Source: Protaetiibacter mangrovi (GTDB lineage Bacteria > Actinomycetota > Actinomycetes > Actinomycetales > Microbacteriaceae). Taken from it: a stretch of DNA of 64,000 nucleotides. The stretch lies in the NCBI RefSeq assembly GCF_024752305.1, contig NZ_JANTHX010000004.1, forward strand, positions 372,001-436,000, in the 5' to 3' direction. The position numbers and the translations under genes were made by a program. Within the stretch, counting starts at the first letter, position 1. The number at the start of each line of letters is the position of its first letter. A model generated the notes under the pieces. It made no database searches. It saw nothing but the letters and a program-made list of their open reading frames with translations, and had not been told where the DNA came from. Below, piece by piece: positions 566 to 8,869 of this stretch.

Positions 566-574
566 GGGACAACC

Positions 575-592
575 GCCCCTGGATTCCGGGAC
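575..592 (+). promoter_or_regulatory. Shared inverted-repeat promoter motif, copy 1
   Basis: Imperfect inverted repeat GCCCC-N8-GGGAC, 54 nt before the ATG at 647. The same arrangement stands at 4603-4620 and 6930-6947. Flanking bases also match (GAGG about 11 nt upstream, CG a few bases downstream). It could be the site of the response regulator encoded at 3903, or the -35 part of a promoter for an alternative sigma factor; sequence alone does not decide. Confidence 0.55.
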
Positions 593-646
593 GGCGGACG
601 CGGCATCCTGGCCTGCAGAGACCGCGCGACGCGGAAGGATGCAGGA

Positions 647-2674
647 ATGAGCGCCCCGGGCGACGCCGCGCGGTTCGACCCGCGATGGGCCCCCGTGCGC
701 CCTCGCCGAACCGCACTCGCGGTGGGGGTCGCGGTCACGGCCGCGTCGTGGGCGCTCGCTCTCGCGGGCGTCGTCGCGGCGACGCTCATCGGGCCCCCGT
801 ATCTCGTCGAGGGCGACCTCGCGGTCGTCTACCTCGGATACGCCGTCGTGTGGGGTGCGGTCGCGGGCATCATCGTCGCGCGGGGCGCGCGCCTCGTCGG
901 AGCCATCCTGGCCGTGCAGGGGGTGGGCGCCGGGCTCTCGCTCCTGCTGACCGTGTCGGCGCGGCACGGCGCCGGCGACCCCGCCGTCGACGGGCTCCTC
1001 GCTCACCTCGCCGATCGGGCGTGGATACCGGGTGCCCTCGCGAGCTTCTCGATCCTCCCCCTCCTGCTCACGTCGCGGCCGCTCGGCCGCGGGGTGCGCG
1101 GCCTCGTCGCGGCGGGGCTCGTGATCGCCGTCGTGCCCGTCGTGCTCGCCCCGTTCCGCCAGCGCGAGGGCGTCGCCGACAACCCGCTCGCGATCGCCGA
1201 CCCCGTCGCCCAGGAGGTGCTGCGGGCGGTGATCGTCGCGGCCTTCACGGCCGCGGTCGCCCTCGGCGCCGTCAGCCTGGGTGTGGCCGTCTGGCGCCGG
1301 TGGGTCGGGCCGCCATCCGATCGACCGGGCCAGGGATGGATCGTCGTGGGCCAGGCGCTGCTCGTCGGGCTCGGATCGCCGATCTTCCTGCCCATCTGGC
1401 CCGAGCTGGCGCAGTCCTTCACGCGCGTCTCGCCGCTGGCCCCCCTCGTGGCGCTGCTCTTCATGCCGGCCGCCGTCATCGTCTTCGCCCTCGGCCGCCG
1501 CGTCGGAGGCATCGAGGTCGCCGTCAACCGCGCGGTCGTCAACGTGCTGCTGGTCGCCGTGCTCGTGCTCGCCTATTCGGCGATCGCGACGACGATCGCG
1601 ATCGCCTTTCCCGTCGCGCCGCTGGTCGCGGGGGCGTTCGGGGTGGCGGTGCTGGCGCTCGGCATCGACCCGCTGCGCACCTGGATCCAGAGCCGGGTCG
1701 ACGAGCTCGTCTACGGAGACGCCGCCGATCCGGCGCAGCTGATGCGCACGCTCGGCGACCGTGTGCCGGACGACGTCGACGTCGACGACCTGCGGGCCCT
1801 CGCCGAGGAGCTCCGCTCGGCGCTGCGCCTCGCACGACTGGAGCTGAGCTCGGCGGAATCGAACGGGGTGCGCGTGGTCGCCGGATCGCCCGGCGGCCCT
1901 CCGGCGCGCGTCGCATTGCGCGGCTCGTCGGGAGAGGTCGGTTGGATCGAGGCGGCGGCCCCGGGGCGGCAGCGGGTCGATCGCCGCATCGTCCACGTGC
2001 TCGACCAGGTCTCCGGAGTGCTCGCGGTCGCGGTGCGGCTCGCCGACATCAACCGGGGCATCCTCGACGCGGGCGAGCGCGCTCGCGAGGTCGGCGCAGA
2101 GGAGCGGCGGATGGTGGCCCGCGAACTGGAGACGGGGCTCGGACCGGGACTCGCACGGAGCGCGGATCGGCTGGACGGGGTGCCGGGCCTCGTCGCCGTC
2201 GGGGATCCCGCCGCCGCTGCAGAGCTCGCCGGGATCCGCGGGGAGCTGGCCGAGCGGACGACGGAGGTGCGCGACCTGGCCCGCACGCTCCTGCCGGGCG
2301 CCCTGGATTCCGGCGACGTCGACCAGGCCCTGCGGGAGCTCGCGGCCCGCTTTTCGAGCGCGCGACTCGAGATCGCGGTCGAGGGTCGTCTCGGCGACGC
2401 CGTCCCCGAAGGCCGGGAGGCGGCGGTGCATCACCTGGTCGCCGAGCTCGTGCTGCTGGCGCGGCGGACGCCGGATGCGCGCCTCGCCCGGATCGCGATC
2501 GAGGTCGGTCCGCGCGAGGTCCGCGTCGCGCTCACGGTCGACGGTCGTGGGCGGGCGGCCGACGAGGAGCCGATCCTGGGATCCGTGCGCGATCGTGCGG
2601 TCGAGCTGGGGGGCAGCCTCGACGACCGGGCGACGGGAGCGCGTCGCGAACTCGTCGTGGAGGTGCCGCGATGA
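647..2674 (+). CDS. Membrane sensor with degenerate histidine-kinase core (pseudokinase)
   Basis: 675 residues. Residues about 20-345 hold roughly eight to ten hydrophobic segments, then comes a GAF-like stretch (about 355-465) and a C-terminal region aligned with the next gene's kinase core. In that gene the H-box reads RRELHDGIGP; here it reads ARELETGLGP, so the phospho-accepting His is Glu495. The N-box Asn is absent and the G1 motif is only VDGRG. It should therefore neither autophosphorylate nor bind ATP well. It overlaps the true kinase by 4 bp (ATGA), so the two are co-translated and probably form a heteromeric sensor in the membrane. The start at 647 has GGAAGGATGCAGGA just ahead. 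Ligand unknown. Confidence 0.75.
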   Translation: MSAPGDAARFDPRWAPVRPRRTALAVGVAVTAASWALALAGVVAATLIGPPYLVEGDLAVVYLGYAVVWGAVAGIIVARGARLVGAILAVQGVGAGLSLLLTVSARHGAGDPAVDGLLAHLADRAWIPGALASFSILPLLLTSRPLGRGVRGLVAAGLVIAVVPVVLAPFRQREGVADNPLAIADPVAQEVLRAVIVAAFTAAVALGAVSLGVAVWRRWVGPPSDRPGQGWIVVGQALLVGLGSPIFLPIWPELAQSFTRVSPLAPLVALLFMPAAVIVFALGRRVGGIEVAVNRAVVNVLLVAVLVLAYSAIATTIAIAFPVAPLVAGAFGVAVLALGIDPLRTWIQSRVDELVYGDAADPAQLMRTLGDRVPDDVDVDDLRALAEELRSALRLARLELSSAESNGVRVVAGSPGGPPARVALRGSSGEVGWIEAAAPGRQRVDRRIVHVLDQVSGVLAVAVRLADINRGILDAGERAREVGAEERRMVARELETGLGPGLARSADRLDGVPGLVAVGDPAAAAELAGIRGELAERTTEVRDLARTLLPGALDSGDVDQALRELAARFSSARLEIAVEGRLGDAVPEGREAAVHHLVAELVLLARRTPDARLARIAIEVGPREVRVALTVDGRGRAADEEPILGSVRDRAVELGGSLDDRATGARRELVVEVPR

Positions 2675-3906
2675 GCCGCCGTCGTGTCGCCGCAGCGGTG
2701 TCCCGGATGCTCCTCTGGGCGATCCTGGTGAGCACGGCGATCGCCGCGTACCTCGCCGTCGCGGAGTTGCTCGCGGTCGTCACCGCCTTCGACGAGGTCG
2801 TGATCGGCGTCGTGTCGGCGGCGCTCGTCGCACTCCTGCTCCAACGGGTCCGCGGAGGGATCGCGTCGGGCGTCGACCGCCTGGTCCACGGCCCGGGAGG
2901 CGATCCGGCGCGACTGCTCGGAAGGCTCGGCGAAAGGGTGGGGGAGTTCGACTCCGGCGCCGAGGGTCTCGCCGGTCTCGCCGCGGCTTTGCGGGCGGCG
3001 CTCGGGGTCGCCGCCATCGAGATCGTGCCCGACGAGCACGGCTCGGACGCGATCGTCGTGGGTGAACCCGGCGAGGACCCGACCGTGCTCGAGCTGCGCA
3101 CCGCAGGCGTCCGGATCGGGGAGCTCCGGGTGAGTCCGCGGCACGGCGAGCGCCTGTCGCGCAGCGCGCTGCGCCAGCTGGAGGAACTCGTCGGCGTCGT
3201 CGCGACGGCGCTCCGGTTGGCGCTCGCGAGCGCACGGCTCGGCGATGCCCGGGACGGTCTCGTGGCCGCGCGCCAGGCGGAGCGTCGCACACTGCGACGC
3301 GAACTGCACGACGGCATCGGCCCCGCGCTCGCGGGTGTGGGGTTCGGTCTCGCGGCCGTCGACAACCTCCGTGCCACGGATCCGGTCGCGGCCGCCGGAC
3401 TCGCCACCCGGCTCGCGCAGGACCTGCGAGCGCAACTCGGGGAGGTGCGGCGCGTGGCGCGCAGCGTGCGCGTGGTGGGCACCGGGTTCGAGCTGCCGGT
3501 CGAGCTCGTGGAGCTCGGCGCCGACTTCGCCGGGTCCGGCGTCGAGATCGCGGTGGACGCGCCGCCGGCCGTGCGGCTGCCGCCGCACGCGATCCGGCCC
3601 CTCTATCTGGTGGCGGCGGAGGCGGTCCACAACGCCGTGCGCCACGCGGCCGCGAGGTCCGTCGCGATCCGGCTCGTCGAGCACTCCGGCGACGTCACCC
3701 TGTCCGTCGCCGACGACGGGCACGGCTTCGACCCGGCCGCCGTCGCCGACGGCGTCGGTCTCGCGACCATGCGCGAGCACGCGGTCGAGGCGGGCGCCGA
3801 GCTCGCCCTCGACTCCGGTCCGGGGGGCACCCGCATGGTGCTCCGCGTGCCGGGCGGCGCGATCGTCCCCGCATCCACCTCCGCATCCCGGGAGCACACG
3901 GAATGA
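2671..3906 (+). CDS. Sensor histidine kinase, HisKA_3 (NarL-type) family
   Basis: 411 residues. Two N-terminal membrane segments (about 10-35 and 42-58), a GAF-like middle part, then a complete kinase core: ERRTLRRELHDGIGP with His213 as phosphorylation site, N-box EAVHNAVRHA, G1 box DDGHGFD and G2 box GVGLATMREH. This is the usual partner of LuxR/NarL-type regulators, one of which follows with a 4-bp ATGA overlap at 3903. The ATG at 2671 overlaps the stop of the pseudokinase gene. Both membrane proteins share the segment around 'R(V/I)D(E/R)LV(Y/H)G' after the last helix, which suggests they arose by duplication, with one copy losing catalysis. Confidence 0.88.
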   Translation: MSRRRVAAAVSRMLLWAILVSTAIAAYLAVAELLAVVTAFDEVVIGVVSAALVALLLQRVRGGIASGVDRLVHGPGGDPARLLGRLGERVGEFDSGAEGLAGLAAALRAALGVAAIEIVPDEHGSDAIVVGEPGEDPTVLELRTAGVRIGELRVSPRHGERLSRSALRQLEELVGVVATALRLALASARLGDARDGLVAARQAERRTLRRELHDGIGPALAGVGFGLAAVDNLRATDPVAAAGLATRLAQDLRAQLGEVRRVARSVRVVGTGFELPVELVELGADFAGSGVEIAVDAPPAVRLPPHAIRPLYLVAAEAVHNAVRHAAARSVAIRLVEHSGDVTLSVADDGHGFDPAAVADGVGLATMREHAVEAGAELALDSGPGGTRMVLRVPGGAIVPASTSASREHTE

Positions 3907-4565
3907 GCACCGCATCCGACCCCATCCGGGTCGTCGTCGTCGACGACCACCCGCTGTTCCGCATCGGCATCATCTCGCTGCTCGAGACCCTCGACGGCGT
4001 GCAGGTGGTCGGATCGGCCGAGACGGCCGACGAGGCCGTCGGGGTGGTGCTCGCCGCATCGCCCGCGGTCGTGTTGATGGACCTCGACCTCGCGGCGGGA
4101 TCGTCGGGTATCGATGCGACCCGGCGGATCACCCGCGAGCGACCGGACATCGGCGTGCTGGTGCTGACGATGCTCGGCGACGACGAGTCGCTCTTCGCCG
4201 CGGTGCGGTCGGGCGCGCGCGGGTATCTGCTCAAGACCGCCGCCCCCGACGAGGTGCAGCGCGCCATCCATGCCGTGGCGGCGGGCGACATGCTGCTGGG
4301 TGCGGATGTGGCGCGTCGGGCTCTCTCCTACCTCACGGATGCGAAGCGGGCGGGTGGGCGCCCGTTCCCCGAGCTGACCGAGCGCGAGCGCGAGGTGCTC
4401 GATCTGGTCGCCCGTGGACAGGACAACCCCACGATCGCGCGCACCCTCGTGCTCACCAACAAGACGGTGCGCAACTACGTGTACGGCATCGCGACGAAGC
4501 TCGGCGCACCCGACCGCTCCGCGCTCATCGTGATGGCGCGCGAGGCGGGGGTGGGCGTCGACTAA
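3903..4565 (+). CDS. LuxR/NarL-family response regulator
   Basis: 220 residues. Receiver domain at about 8-125 with the acidic pair Asp14-Asp15 (VVVDDHPLFR), phospho-acceptor Asp60 (VLMDLDL) and the conserved Lys in YLLKTAAPDE. A C-terminal LuxR helix-turn-helix follows (about 155-215, LTEREREVLDLVARG and the recognition helix around TNKTVRNYVYGI). It is the last gene of the three-gene operon and the obvious target of the kinase encoded just upstream. The repeated inverted repeat found before this operon, before 4683 and before 7002 is a good candidate for its binding site, which would make the system autoregulated and tie it to the surface-protein genes downstream. Confidence 0.93.
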   Translation: MSTASDPIRVVVVDDHPLFRIGIISLLETLDGVQVVGSAETADEAVGVVLAASPAVVLMDLDLAAGSSGIDATRRITRERPDIGVLVLTMLGDDESLFAAVRSGARGYLLKTAAPDEVQRAIHAVAAGDMLLGADVARRALSYLTDAKRAGGRPFPELTEREREVLDLVARGQDNPTIARTLVLTNKTVRNYVYGIATKLGAPDRSALIVMAREAGVGVD

Positions 4566-4602
4566 TCCGCTACCCTGGTGTGGTGGTGAATTGAGGACAT
4601 CC

Positions 4603-4620
4603 GTCCCTGGGAGTCGGGAC
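4603..4620 (+). promoter_or_regulatory. Shared inverted-repeat promoter motif, copy 2
   Basis: Perfect GTCCC-N8-GGGAC, 62 nt before the ATG at 4683. Beyond the repeat, 17 nt after GGGAC, comes CGGTCGTCGGCGC, and the copy at 6930-6947 has CGGACGTCGGCAC at the same distance. That two-part pattern (GGGAC, 17 nt, CGGWCGTC) would also fit an ECF-sigma-type promoter. Confidence 0.6.
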
Positions 4621-4682
4621 ATCGGGTCGGGAAGTCTCGGTCGTCGGCGCAGTCCCGCGCCGACACGAGAGGACCACCCGAC

Positions 4683-6806
4683 ATGTTGCACACCCCCCTG
4701 CGCCGGCTCGCCGCCGGTGCGACCGCCACCGCGCTCCTCGCGGGCGCCTTCCTGATCCCGGCGGCGATCGCCGCGGCCGATGAGCTCCCCCCGGGCGAGG
4801 CGACGGAGTCCGTCGTCGGCGAGCCGAGCCCCGAGGCGGCGGCACCCGACGACGCGGAGGCGTCCGAGCTCGACGCGGCCCCGGATGAGGCGGACGAGCA
4901 GACCGCCCTCGCACCCGAGCAGGCGGCCGAGGCGGTCGACCTCCCGACCCCGGACGCCGCGACCCCGGAGACCCCGGTCGCCGCCGAGCAGCTCGTCCCC
5001 ACGGCCGCCTCGACGGACGACCCGCAGGACCCGTCCGGCGAGATCGCGCCCGGCGACACCCTCGAGATCCCCTACACCGTCACGGGCGCCAAGATGGTGT
5101 TCGTCTACGCGATCGGCGCGAGCATCGACGCCGCGGTCGTCCGCGGCGACGGCTTCCGCGTGCCGCTGAACGCCAACGGCGTCGTCCACTCGGGCGAGTA
5201 CTACTGGCTCGGCCAGCCCGACGGCGTCTGGACCCTGCAGATCAGCAACATCGGCACGCGCCCCATCACCCCCGAGTACGAGCTGAGCTACTCGACCTCC
5301 TCGGGCACCCTCGAACTCTTCAGCAGCGCCAACGCACCCGCGCTCTCGCTCACGGCCGACCCGATCGTCGACGGTTCCCGGCGCAGCGGCCTGACCGTGC
5401 TGTCGGAGCTCACCGGCCCGGACGGAACCACCTACAGCAAGCCCGTGCCCCCGATCTTCCCCGGTTCGACCCAGTACTCGGTGAACTACACCGGGCTGCC
5501 GGACGGCCGGTACTTCGCGCGGGTGTGGACCGTCGTCGACGGTGTCACGTACCAGTCCTCCCGCACGGTCGGGGTGCACGCCGCCGAGACCGACCCGCCG
5601 ACCGTGACCCTCTCGACGACACCCGACGCCCCGAACGCGAACGGCTGGTTCCGCAGCGTGTCGCTCGCCTTCTCCGGCACCGACGCCGGCTCCGGATACC
5701 TCGACGCCGCGTTCGCCATCGACGGCGGTGCCGAGCAGATCGGCTACCTGGGCGTTCGCTACCCCCTCGCGGGAGACGGCGAGCACACCGTCCGCTACCG
5801 CGGACGCGACTATCAGCACAACTACAGCGCCTGGGAGGAGGCCACCGTCCGCGTCGACGCCACGGCGCCGCAGATCGCCCTGTACGGCATCGCCGAGGGG
5901 GCCCGCTACGCGGTGGGCGAGGAGCTGTTCGTCGAGTACCAGTGCGGCGACGCGACCTCCGGTCTCGTCGGCGGCGACTGCACGGCCGATCTGCCCGACG
6001 GCGCCCGCGTCGACACGACGACCCCGGGCGAGTACCGCTTCACGATCGAGGCGACCGATCTCGCCGGCAACACGAACCGCGTCGTGCGTCAGTACAGCGT
6101 GATCGCGCCGGACACGACCGACCCCGTCGTCGACGTCGAGCAGCCCGCGGTGCCGGCGAGCGGCTGGTACCTCGACGAGGTCACGGTGCGCTTCACCGCG
6201 AGCGACGAGAGCGGCATCCGTCTCATCCACTACGAGTACGAGACCAACCAGGGCACCGTGCGCCGCGACATCGAGGCGGATACCGCCGAGGTGACGTTCG
6301 ACCGCAGCCAGTACTACCGGCTGAGCTACTGGGCCGAGGACGCCGCGGGCAACCGCAGCGAGTCGCGCGACCTCGACCTCTACGTCGACGCGACCGCGCC
6401 GTGGGTCGACATGACCACGCCGGCCGATGAGCCCTCGATCCTGCCGAACGGGCACTACGCACAGCACGAGAGCGTCGTGGTCGACTTCAGCTGCGACGAC
6501 GACGCCTCGGGCATCGCGAGCTGCGAGGGGTCGACGCCGGACGGCGAGCTGCTGCCCACCGGCACCCCCGGCACCCACGAGCTGCGCATCGTGGCCACGG
6601 ATGTCGCGGGCCACCGCACCGAGCGCGTCGTCAGCTACACGGTCGACGCGGCGCCCGCTCAGGGCGGCACCGGCACCGGATCGAGCGGCACCGGGGGGCT
6701 CGCCTCGACGGGTGCGGAGAACGTCGTCGCGGCGCTCGGGCTCGCCGCGCTCCTCCTCGGAGCGGGGGCTGCCCTGACCATCCGGCGACGCGTGCGCACG
6801 CGGTAG
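4683..6806 (+). CDS. Sortase-anchored surface protein with Ig-like repeats
   Basis: 707 residues, exported. The N-terminus has a basic patch, a hydrophobic core and an Ala-rich cleavage region ending near residue 33. Next is an acidic, Ala/Pro-rich segment (about 35-120), a pre-peptidase-like beta domain, and at least three similar beta-sandwich repeats that open with DPP/DTTDP/DATAP and contain a W/Y-rich strand and SG turns (about 300-660). Two repeats carry a close Cys pair. The C-terminus is a sorting signal: LASTG at 673-677, a hydrophobic helix and a basic tail, which fits the LAxTG motif known for class E sortases of high-GC Gram-positives. A binding or adhesin role is likely; the ligand is unknown. 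SD sequence GAGAGGA precedes the ATG. Confidence 0.82.
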   Translation: MLHTPLRRLAAGATATALLAGAFLIPAAIAAADELPPGEATESVVGEPSPEAAAPDDAEASELDAAPDEADEQTALAPEQAAEAVDLPTPDAATPETPVAAEQLVPTAASTDDPQDPSGEIAPGDTLEIPYTVTGAKMVFVYAIGASIDAAVVRGDGFRVPLNANGVVHSGEYYWLGQPDGVWTLQISNIGTRPITPEYELSYSTSSGTLELFSSANAPALSLTADPIVDGSRRSGLTVLSELTGPDGTTYSKPVPPIFPGSTQYSVNYTGLPDGRYFARVWTVVDGVTYQSSRTVGVHAAETDPPTVTLSTTPDAPNANGWFRSVSLAFSGTDAGSGYLDAAFAIDGGAEQIGYLGVRYPLAGDGEHTVRYRGRDYQHNYSAWEEATVRVDATAPQIALYGIAEGARYAVGEELFVEYQCGDATSGLVGGDCTADLPDGARVDTTTPGEYRFTIEATDLAGNTNRVVRQYSVIAPDTTDPVVDVEQPAVPASGWYLDEVTVRFTASDESGIRLIHYEYETNQGTVRRDIEADTAEVTFDRSQYYRLSYWAEDAAGNRSESRDLDLYVDATAPWVDMTTPADEPSILPNGHYAQHESVVVDFSCDDDASGIASCEGSTPDGELLPTGTPGTHELRIVATDVAGHRTERVVSYTVDAAPAQGGTGTGSSGTGGLASTGAENVVAALGLAALLLGAGAALTIRRRVRTR

Positions 6807-6825
6807 GAGGACACCGCCGCGCACG

Positions 6826-6861
6826 GGGACGGCCCGCCCTTTCGGGAGAGCGGGCCGTCCC
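6826..6861 (+). terminator. Hairpin after the surface-protein gene
   Basis: Perfect 12-bp stem (6826-6837 with 6850-6861), 12-nt loop, 20 bp past the stop codon. There is no T-run after it, as is common for terminators in high-GC actinobacteria. Confidence 0.65.
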
Positions 6862-6929
6862 GACCTCCGCGACCGGGACGCGGGTCCCGGTCGGATCCGG
6901 GCCCCATCCGGGCGCGATCGAGGGCTCCC

Positions 6930-6947
6930 GACCCTGGGGCTCGGGAC
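6930..6947 (+). promoter_or_regulatory. Shared inverted-repeat promoter motif, copy 3
   Basis: GACCC-N8-GGGAC, 54 nt before the ATG at 7002, the same distance as copy 1. It shares CCCTGGRNNYCGGGAC with the other copies and the CGGWCGTCGGC box 17 nt downstream with copy 2. Confidence 0.55.
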
Positions 6948-7001
6948 ACCGCGCGCGCGAAGGTCGGACGTCGGCACCCGCCGCCCGCAGGAAGGACCCC
7001 C

Positions 7002-7202
7002 ATGACCACCACCGACGGGATCGAGTCGGCCGCTGAGGATCAGACCACCACGATCCTCACCGTCCCCGCCTCGCCCCTGCCCACCGACCCCCGACTGGGA
7101 CAGACCGGCGGCGAGCTCGCGATCCTCGGGATCGTGCTCGTCGCAGCTCTCCTCGCGGCAGGAGCCCTGCTCCTGACCACGCGGAGACTCGGCGGCCGCT
7201 AG
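7002..7202 (+). CDS. Small protein made almost only of a sorting-signal-like tail
   Basis: 66 residues. The first 30 or so are polar (Thr/Asp/Pro rich) with no signal peptide. Then LGQTG at 32-36, a single hydrophobic helix and a tail ending RRLGGR. The distance from the LxxTG motif to the C-terminus is 35 residues, exactly as in the surface protein encoded upstream, so this looks like a free-standing sorting signal. Translation is well supported by GGAAGGA before the ATG, and it has its own hairpins on both sides and its own copy of the shared promoter motif. It could be a membrane microprotein, a sortase competitor or regulator, or a remnant of a larger gene. I know no named family for it. 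Confidence 0.6.
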   Translation: MTTTDGIESAAEDQTTTILTVPASPLPTDPRLGQTGGELAILGIVLVAALLAAGALLLTTRRLGGR

Positions 7203-7336: not shown

Positions 7337-8869
7337 ATGTCCCGAACCACCACACGCGCCCTCGCGGGCGTGATCACGGCGGGCGGCCTGACCGCCGCCC
7401 TCGCCGGCTGCAGCCTGCTCCCGGGCCAGGGCGGCGGCTCCGCCGAACCCGGCGCGCCGGTCGGCTTCGAGCAGGTGCAGCAGGCCGTCATCCAGCTCGA
7501 GGCGCGCGGCACCTTCGTCGACCCCGAGTACGGCGGCTACGAGGGCGCCGGCCGCGGATCCGGCTTCATCATCAGCGAGGACGGCCTCGCCATCACCAAC
7601 AACCATGTCGTCGTCGGCGCGGGCACGATCGACGTGTGGCGCGGCGGCGACCAGAGCGACACCCTCGACGCCCGGGTGCTCGGCGCATCCGAGTGCCTCG
7701 ACATCGCCGTGGTGCAGCTCGAGAAGGGCGACTACCCCTACCTCGCCTGGCACACGGGCGAGATCACGACCGGCATCGACGTGTACGCGGCGGGCTTCCC
7801 GCTCGGCGACCCGACGTTCACCATGACGCGCGGCATCGTGTCCAAGGCCGACATCGAAGGCGACACCGCGTGGGCCTCGATCGACTCGATCATCGAGCAC
7901 GACGCGCGCATCCGCCCCGGCAACTCGGGCGGTCCCCTGGTGGACTCGAGCGGTCGGGTCGTCGGGGTCAACTACGCGGGCGAGGACACGTACGACTACA
8001 ACTTCGCGATCCACCGCGACGAGGTGCAGGGCGTCATCGACCAGCTCGCGGCCGGCGAGTCGGTGCTGAGCCTCGGCATCAACGGCCAAGGCATCGCGGG
8101 CGAGGACGGCGGGCTCGGGGTCTGGGTCGCCTCGGTCGCCGCCGGGTCTGCGGCCGACAAGGCGGGCATCGAGCCCGGCGACCTGATCACCCGCCTCGGC
8201 GGCGTGAGCGTCGGCACCGACGGTTCGATGCGCGAGTACTGCGACGTGCTGCGCACCCACGGTCCGGAGGCGACGCTCGACATCGAGCTGTTCCGGCCCT
8301 CCGACCAGTCCTACTACCGCGGACAGGTCAACTCCGACCGCGTGGTCGCTGCGGTCGCCAACGTCGGCGGCGGGGGCGGCGGCGAGCCGTCGGGCGACTT
8401 CGTCGACATCTCCGACGACTCGGGACGCATCGGCGTCTCGGTGCCCGTCGAGTGGGACGAGGTCGACGGCTCCGGCTTCACCGACGACTCCGGCAACGCG
8501 TGGGCGACGGTGAGCGCCAGCCCCAGCCTGTCGAAGTACCAGAACGGCTGGACCGCGCCGGGTGTCACCGTCGCCGCGACGCAGTCGAACGTGAGCGCCG
8601 CGTCGATCGATGCGCTGCTCGGCTCCACCCGCGCGAGCGTCACCCCCGACGGGTGCGTGTCGCAGGGCGTGCAGAGCTACGCCGACGGCTATCACACCGG
8701 CAGCTACGAGTACTACACGGGATGCGGCTCCACCTCCGCCGACTACGTCGCCATCGCGGCGATCGCGGACGACGGCAGCTACCTCGTCTACGTGCTGGTG
8801 CAGGCGCTCGACGATGACGACGTCGCCGCCCTGGACCGCATCGTCAGCAGCTTCATCGCGGGCTTCTGA
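7337..8869 (+). CDS. HtrA-like serine protease lipoprotein with PDZ and C-terminal domain
   Basis: 510 residues. Lipobox L-A-G-C with Cys25, so the protein is a lipid-anchored extracytoplasmic protease. The S1C core has the full triad: His90 in ITNNHVV, Asp122 in CLDIAVV, Ser197 in RPGNSGGPL. A PDZ domain follows (about 255-345; AGSAADKAGIEPGDLI). After a Gly-rich linker (GGGGGGE) lies an extra domain of about 145 residues with two Cys and many Gly/Tyr/Asp, which I do not recognise. The ATG at 7337 is chosen because it yields the signal sequence at once. HtrA proteins handle damaged exported proteins, which fits its place behind a sensor operon and surface proteins, though it lacks the shared promoter motif. 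Confidence 0.9.
   Translation: MSRTTTRALAGVITAGGLTAALAGCSLLPGQGGGSAEPGAPVGFEQVQQAVIQLEARGTFVDPEYGGYEGAGRGSGFIISEDGLAITNNHVVVGAGTIDVWRGGDQSDTLDARVLGASECLDIAVVQLEKGDYPYLAWHTGEITTGIDVYAAGFPLGDPTFTMTRGIVSKADIEGDTAWASIDSIIEHDARIRPGNSGGPLVDSSGRVVGVNYAGEDTYDYNFAIHRDEVQGVIDQLAAGESVLSLGINGQGIAGEDGGLGVWVASVAAGSAADKAGIEPGDLITRLGGVSVGTDGSMREYCDVLRTHGPEATLDIELFRPSDQSYYRGQVNSDRVVAAVANVGGGGGGEPSGDFVDISDDSGRIGVSVPVEWDEVDGSGFTDDSGNAWATVSASPSLSKYQNGWTAPGVTVAATQSNVSAASIDALLGSTRASVTPDGCVSQGVQSYADGYHTGSYEYYTGCGSTSADYVAIAAIADDGSYLVYVLVQALDDDDVAALDRIVSSFIAGF

Follow-up and report, generated by a model that had tools for sequence, protein, structure and literature searches.

Among described two-component systems, the closest to the one treated here are DosRS/DevRS on the one hand and LiaFSR/VraSR, MadRS and EsrISR on the other. 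The sensor DosS carries GAF domains, and EsrISR is an envelope-stress system of the NarL type, like LiaFSR/VraSR and MadRS. To our knowledge, no box of the kind reported below is known in LiaFSR/VraSR, MadRS or EsrISR. The DosR consensus TTSGGGACTWWAGTCCCSAA contains GGGAC-N6-CCC (PMC2275270), DosR contacts DNA bases through Lys179, Lys182 and Asn183 (PMC4082495), and DevR promoters carry close-packed sites that are bound cooperatively, the proximal one overlapping the -35 region (PMC3029386). The present analysis concerns a 64,000-nucleotide stretch of Protaetiibacter mangrovi (Microbacteriaceae; contig NZ_JANTHX010000004.1, positions 372,001 to 436,000; hereafter the window), in which one box occurs three times, ahead of a sensor operon, of a surface protein gene, and of a 66-aa gene followed by a gene for an HtrA-like protease. 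Sensor operons related to this one, in several families of the order, are likewise preceded by the box. The best explanation, and in our judgement a likely one on sequence grounds, is that the three boxes are operators of the NarL/LuxR-type response regulator (RR) encoded by the sensor operon, which would control its own operon and activate the surface protein gene and the 66-aa/HtrA unit.

Sequence and promoter context of the three boxes

A motif scan of the window finds exact matches to CCCTGGRNNYCGGGAC at 577-592, 4605-4620 and 6932-6947, and there is no further exact copy in the whole genome (2,981,289 bases). The start codon follows 54, 62 and 54 nt past the end of the box at sites 1, 2 and 3; both the three sites and their distance of 54-62 nt had been given in a preliminary description of this DNA. 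All features are reported in window coordinates and lie on its + strand. The proximal box of site 1, CCCTGGATTCCGGGAC (577..592), stands 5' of the sensor operon, and the same 16-mer precedes the first gene of that operon in three same-genus genomes (G203, G180 and G200). That of site 2, CCCTGGGAGTCGGGAC (4605..4620), lies 5' of the surface protein gene and has counterparts in the same position: exact ones in G203 and G180 and one with a single mismatch in G023, from another genus of the family. That of site 3, CCCTGGGGCTCGGGAC (6932..6947), has them in G203 (exact) and in G180 and G200 (one mismatch each). The 5-bp inverted arms previously ascribed to all three copies are perfect at site 2 (GTCCC/GGGAC) and have one mismatch at sites 1 and 3. 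The GAGG noted upstream is present, and corresponds to the right arm, GGRC, of a distal half-site pair: GGGAC at 566..570 for site 1, where GGRC lies 6 nt before CCCTGG, and, from matches to the extended pattern given below, AGGAC at 4594..4598 for site 2 and AGGGC at 6921..6925 for site 3. Downstream, putative -10 hexamers are CATCCT (604..609; N11 after GGGAC, with a conserved A(-11) and T(-7)), AAGTCT (4632..4637) and GAAGGT (6959..6964), the latter two placed from the aligned sites.

The similarity of the three sites is real and far beyond chance, but it does not reside in the bare 16-mer. With up to two mismatches the latter occurs 7 times in the window against 6.55 expected, and across 199 family genomes there are 34 exact 16-mers, the reversed control giving 41 (counted by hand), which is chance level in both cases; the bare 16-mer was accordingly rejected as a genome-wide predictor. 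The worry that the motif might be frequent at random positions thus holds for the short form and not for the extended one, which is specific because it adds context, namely the GGRC arm, CCCTGG and the -10 positions. The pattern GGRC-N6-CCCTG-N5-CGGGAC has three exact matches in the genome, the three sites themselves, and GGRC-N6-CCCTGG-N4-CGGGAC-N12-ANNNT, at up to two mismatches, finds the three sites alone in the window, where 0.03 matches are expected. Both one-mismatch matches of the longer pattern elsewhere in the genome (C3:80639 and C7:254694) lack the -10 letters. At up to two mismatches the genome holds 54 matches against 19 for the reversed control, an excess that may reflect weak additional targets.

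Comparison with relatives extends the motif to GGRC-N6-CCCTGG-N4-CGGGAC-N11-NANNNT, adding a second half-site 22 bp upstream and a sigma-A-like -10 box at fixed spacing. Among 30 aligned sites, part of which were found with the -10 requirement, GG(-49,-48), C(-39), C(-37), T(-36), GG(-27,-26), A(-25), C(-24) and T(-7) are invariant, A at -11 is present in 29, and GGRC occupies -49 to -46 in 28; all three window sites have it. A(-11) and T(-7) are the key bases of a sigma-A-type -10 element. At the 16 sites from outside the window's family a second CCC arm lies exactly 22 bp 5' of the first in 10 and is off by one base in 5, so that the distal part there repeats the palindrome; in the window's genus the distal pair retains only its right arm, GGRC. 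Half-sites could pair either as CCC-N10-GGG inside the box or as GGGAC-N6-CCC between boxes, as in DosR. Predicted transcription starts fall 31, 39 and 31 nt ahead of the start codons of sites 1, 2 and 3.

Three other accounts of the repeats are best weighed against this architecture. According to the first, the repeats would be transcribed hairpins, or paralogous leaders, of no regulatory role. Sites 2 and 3 do precede genes that are paralogous as surface genes here or in relatives, but site 1 carries the same box before an unrelated gene. Moreover, the N4 core varies across the aligned sites while arms and -10 spacing stay constant, and the inferred transcription start lies 3' of the box; this account is scarcely credible.

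The second, an extracytoplasmic function (ECF) sigma factor using GGGAC-N17-CGGWCGTC as its promoter, had been put forward in the preliminary description as the alternative to a LuxR-type reader, on the strength of a CGGWCGTCGGC that copies 2 and 3 carry exactly 17 nt past GGGAC. That shared stretch exists. However, its distal CGTC part is missing at site 1, and it has been lost at site 3 in all three same-genus relatives G203, G180 and G200 (CGGAGGGCGG, CGGATGGCGG and CGGATGGCGG, respectively), in which A(-11) and T(-7) are retained. The conserved block is also a palindrome, to which a further half-site is added 22 bp upstream, and no sigma factor was found among the seven cluster proteins scanned, sigma genes elsewhere in the genome not having been searched. 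With no conserved CGTC-type -10 at site 3 of these relatives, the ECF promoter was rejected and is very improbable. A better explanation of the CGGWCGTCGGC common to sites 2 and 3 is that it descends from the promoters of two paralogous surface genes.

The third account keeps the RR on the same operator but makes it a repressor that occludes the -35 region. On the numbering set by the proposed -10, the proximal box does extend from about -39 to -24, which would suit such a repressor. On the other side, the 30 sites show no clear -35 hexamer (the best match to TTGACA averages 2.9 of 6, against 2.5 at random positions), as expected of activator-dependent promoters, and DevR activates from sites that overlap -35 (PMC3029386). 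Repression is thus unlikely, and operators from which the RR activates are preferred.

The sensor operon and its response regulator

The operon behind site 1 opens with HK1 (647..2674), a multi-pass membrane protein resembling a histidine kinase, recognized from its open reading frame and by alignment and without a Pfam match at E<=0.001. In five of five family genomes its phospho-acceptor His is replaced (by E, D, D, D and S) and the N-box is gone, and in the same five HK2 (2671..3906), a HisKA_3/HATPase_c sensor kinase by Pfam, retains both. HK1 is therefore a probable pseudokinase, and HK1-HK2 a probable pseudokinase-kinase pair within one operon. The G203 counterpart of HK2 aligns with the window's HK2 from its residue 284 onward; the preceding 283 residues, and with them apparently the membrane sensor half, are missing from the window's protein. 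Relative to its neighbours, the system is thus reduced in this genome.

The third gene, RR (3903..4565), encodes a NarL/FixJ-family regulator, with a Response_reg domain (71.3 bits, cutoff 30.2) and a GerE domain (56.5 bits, cutoff 23.5), and aligns to DosR/DevR. Its recognition helix reads KTVRN, and KT[VI]RN was found in all 22 RRs examined, among them that of G320, which has KTIRN and no box, so that a box cannot be predicted from the helix alone. The Lys, Arg and Asn of KTVRN align with DosR positions 179, 182 and 183, if the equal-length alignment is taken as gap-free and the chain index as the residue number. The residue after KTVRN covaries with the letters GG at -35/-34 of the box: GG is found at 8/8 sites with Thr, 0/6 with His or Val, 11/15 with Tyr and 1/1 with Asn, a link that is confounded by relatedness. 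Together with the co-occurrence and joint loss described below, the match of the recognition helix to DosR suggests that the operon's own RR very probably reads the box, in agreement with the LuxR-type regulator proposed earlier.

The likeness to DosR/DevR extends beyond regulator family, GGGAC half-site and autoregulation. The DosR spacing GGGAC-N6-CCC equals the step from distal right arm to proximal left arm here (GGRC-N6-CCC at all three window sites), the predicted base-contact residues K, K/R and N are shared (here K, R and N, with R a conservative change), and sites are close-packed with the proximal one over -35. Unlike DosR/DevR, half-sites here recur every 22 bp in an array that stands at a fixed N11 from the -10, and the targets are surface proteins and HtrA rather than dormancy genes; nor was a GAF domain found by Pfam in HK1 or HK2. 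With LiaFSR/VraSR, MadRS and EsrISR the system shares a HisKA_3 kinase with a NarL-type RR, a membrane-protein partner gene and envelope targets. It differs from them in that the partner gene in other families of the order is DUF4386-like, below the Pfam cutoff, and NCBIfam equivalog cutoffs were not reached (MadR 146.1 against 300 for the RR; LiaS 32.1 against 450 for HK2; MadS 42.3 against 500). No paper naming this box or system was among the literature matches listed, which does not prove its absence from print. The locus thus offers a seemingly undescribed two-component system, found in several families of one actinobacterial order, with a precise predicted operator, a promoter position and a list of targets. 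Here, in addition, a half-site and spacing like those of DosR serve envelope proteins, and one operon seems to pair a pseudokinase with a kinase.

The box might instead be read by another regulator, a paralogous RR or an unrelated factor, with the operon as merely one target. The genome does have a second HK-RR pair, at L078 (C3:546000-556000), whose RR is 51% identical and carries a KTVKN helix, and a box in G068 precedes a gene that we take to be DoxX-like, the three matching RRs of that genome being only 52% identical. However, the 10-kb L078 locus contains just two places with up to two mismatches, both without the -10 letters, and box and operon co-occur across families and disappear together within the genus; a different reader is improbable. 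Behind the L078 pair lies a frame with a further tail that resembles a sorting signal. The G068 box (L028) has a distal-box-like stretch and a -10 TAGCTT, and lies 66 nt before its gene, a possible unlinked target.

Distribution in genus, family and order

Within the genus, G203 and G180 carry boxes at all three places and G200 at two; the G200 surface gene matches from residue 379 onward only, and no box lies 5' of it. In G023 boxes precede HK1, the surface gene and the HtrA gene, each with one mismatch, and the one directly 5' of the HtrA gene lacks the A at -11. G023 has an additional exact box on a separate contig, 59 nt before the gene for a 244-aa membrane-protein-like product and accompanied by a GGGAC arm and a -10. 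The box thus accompanies the sensor-regulator operon and also reaches an unlinked gene, as expected of the single small regulon, with autoregulation and envelope targets, that had been proposed. Relatives of the 244-aa protein, 68-72% identical, are encoded behind HtrA in G180, G200 and G203, as judged by coordinates, and none was found in the window's own genome. Probably the protein is distantly related to the DUF4386-like product of the operon's first gene in other families: profile-profile comparison (hhalign) gives a probability of 96.9% over 205 columns, and the best blastp match has an E-value of 2.6e-7 in a set of 15. By contrast, tblastn at 1e-3 and hmmsearch returned no match between the two, and Pfam assigned no family to the 244-aa protein.

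Other members of the genus appear to have lost the box and the operon together. No RR match at E<=1e-40 was obtained in G199, G058, G127 or G201, the sole match in G202 is 46% identical, and none of these five genomes has an exact box apart from one in G199. There the island is missing, GDPD being followed by UvrD, and CCCTGGATTCCGGGAC survives between the two with its -10 gone, probably a fossil of regulon loss. A search of genome contigs with HK1 returned the G203 contig only.

Across the order, 18 of the 248 genomes searched, the window's own among them, have an HK1 relative at E<=1e-25. In the same 248 genomes CCCTGG-N4-CGGGAC-N12-A-N3-T has 23 matches (in 21 genomes) against 4 for the reversed control. 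Nine of the 20 matches outside the window's own genome (in G420, G430, G290, G393, G299, G211, G221, G237 and G264) precede a membrane-protein-like gene followed by HK and RR genes, the first gene of the operon being a different one in G264. In the 3-kb loci of the other 11 none of nine query proteins had a match; these are taken as chance, though an operon more than 1.5 kb away would escape. A stricter comparison used 21 HK1-bearing genomes, 17 from the order search plus G203, G180, G200 and G023, several of which are closely related and hence not independent cases. In the upstream 1.8 kb (1.5 kb in two genomes), the best box was picked on 12 letters alone, the -10 positions being left out. 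It had no mismatch in 10 of the 21 genomes and at most one in 19, against Markov-shuffled expectations of 0.05 and 0.75 genomes, so that the scan of genome and relatives proposed in the preliminary description finds the sites conserved upstream of related operons. Both A(-11) and T(-7) follow in 18 of these 19 boxes, the nineteenth (G321) being a distal box. In a phylum sample of 296 genomes there was no excess (three matches outside the window's own genome, one of them in the order, against four for the control).

Target genes and the proposed circuit

The gene behind site 2 (4683..6806) encodes a surface protein with Ig-like/OmpL47-type repeats by Pfam and NCBIfam matches and an LASTG sorting-signal tail, for which the sorting-signal model gives 25 bits, just under its cutoff of 27. 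The gene next to site 3 (7002..7202) was earlier called an orphan sorting-signal protein, a label that the relatives do not bear out. In G203, G180 and G200 a paralogue of the surface protein, 710-715 aa long and, where the two match, 39-42% identical to the one in the window, stands behind site 3. The 66-aa product has kept the sorting-signal tail and aligns to the last 38 residues of these proteins, and by eye its EDQTTT stretch resembles their start region. The 66-aa gene is thus probably the remnant of a second surface protein gene of ~710 aa. Behind it, at 7337..8869, lies a gene for an HtrA/Do-like serine protease with a PDZ domain (Trypsin_2 and PDZ matches; under the cutoff of the degP_htrA_DO model), which is likely the relevant target of site 3, since the box directly precedes the HtrA gene in G023.

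In the proposed circuit HK2 would phosphorylate the RR (3903-4565), with HK1 acting as a kinase-dead partner, and the RR, in the form of two dimers or of a tetramer, would bind directly to GGGAC-type half-sites that cover each promoter from about -61 to -24. Since the -10 is sigma-A-like and fixed in its distance and no clear -35 is seen, the bound RR most likely recruits RNA polymerase. The expected consequences are positive autoregulation of HK1-HK2-RR and activation, not repression, of the surface protein gene and of the 66-aa gene, presumably co-transcribed with that for HtrA. The outcome would be a small envelope or secretion-stress regulon, with envelope stress as its presumed stimulus. 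A fuller version is offered tentatively, as something we find possible rather than probable: kinase-dead HK1 and active HK2 would together drive the RR, the half-site array would replace the -35 in fixed phase with the -10, and the module, box included, would be an old order-wide envelope-stress circuit, gained or lost as an island within genera.

Several observations weigh against operators of this kind. A box over the -35 region would suit a repressor as well, in the window's genus the distal pair has a degenerate first half, and the L078 regulator, at 51% identity, could in principle bind the box too. Conservation is found mostly at promoters linked to the regulator gene, and in G180, G200 and G203 no separate box precedes the membrane-protein gene that lies behind HtrA. 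Among HK1 relatives, G320 (E 3.6e-26) has no box despite its KTIRN helix, the box at the expected place in G421 has three mismatches, and in G321 the one-mismatch match is the distal box, the proximal one having two. In G006 (E 9.3e-26), which is outside the 21-genome set, the two best-scoring places have four mismatches each.

Between the surface protein gene and site 3, at 6826..6861, there is a strong terminator-like hairpin with a 12-bp GC stem and without a T run. The segment 6806-6880 folds with a minimum free energy of -40.9 (z -1.82), and 9 of 200 shuffled sequences fold equally well.

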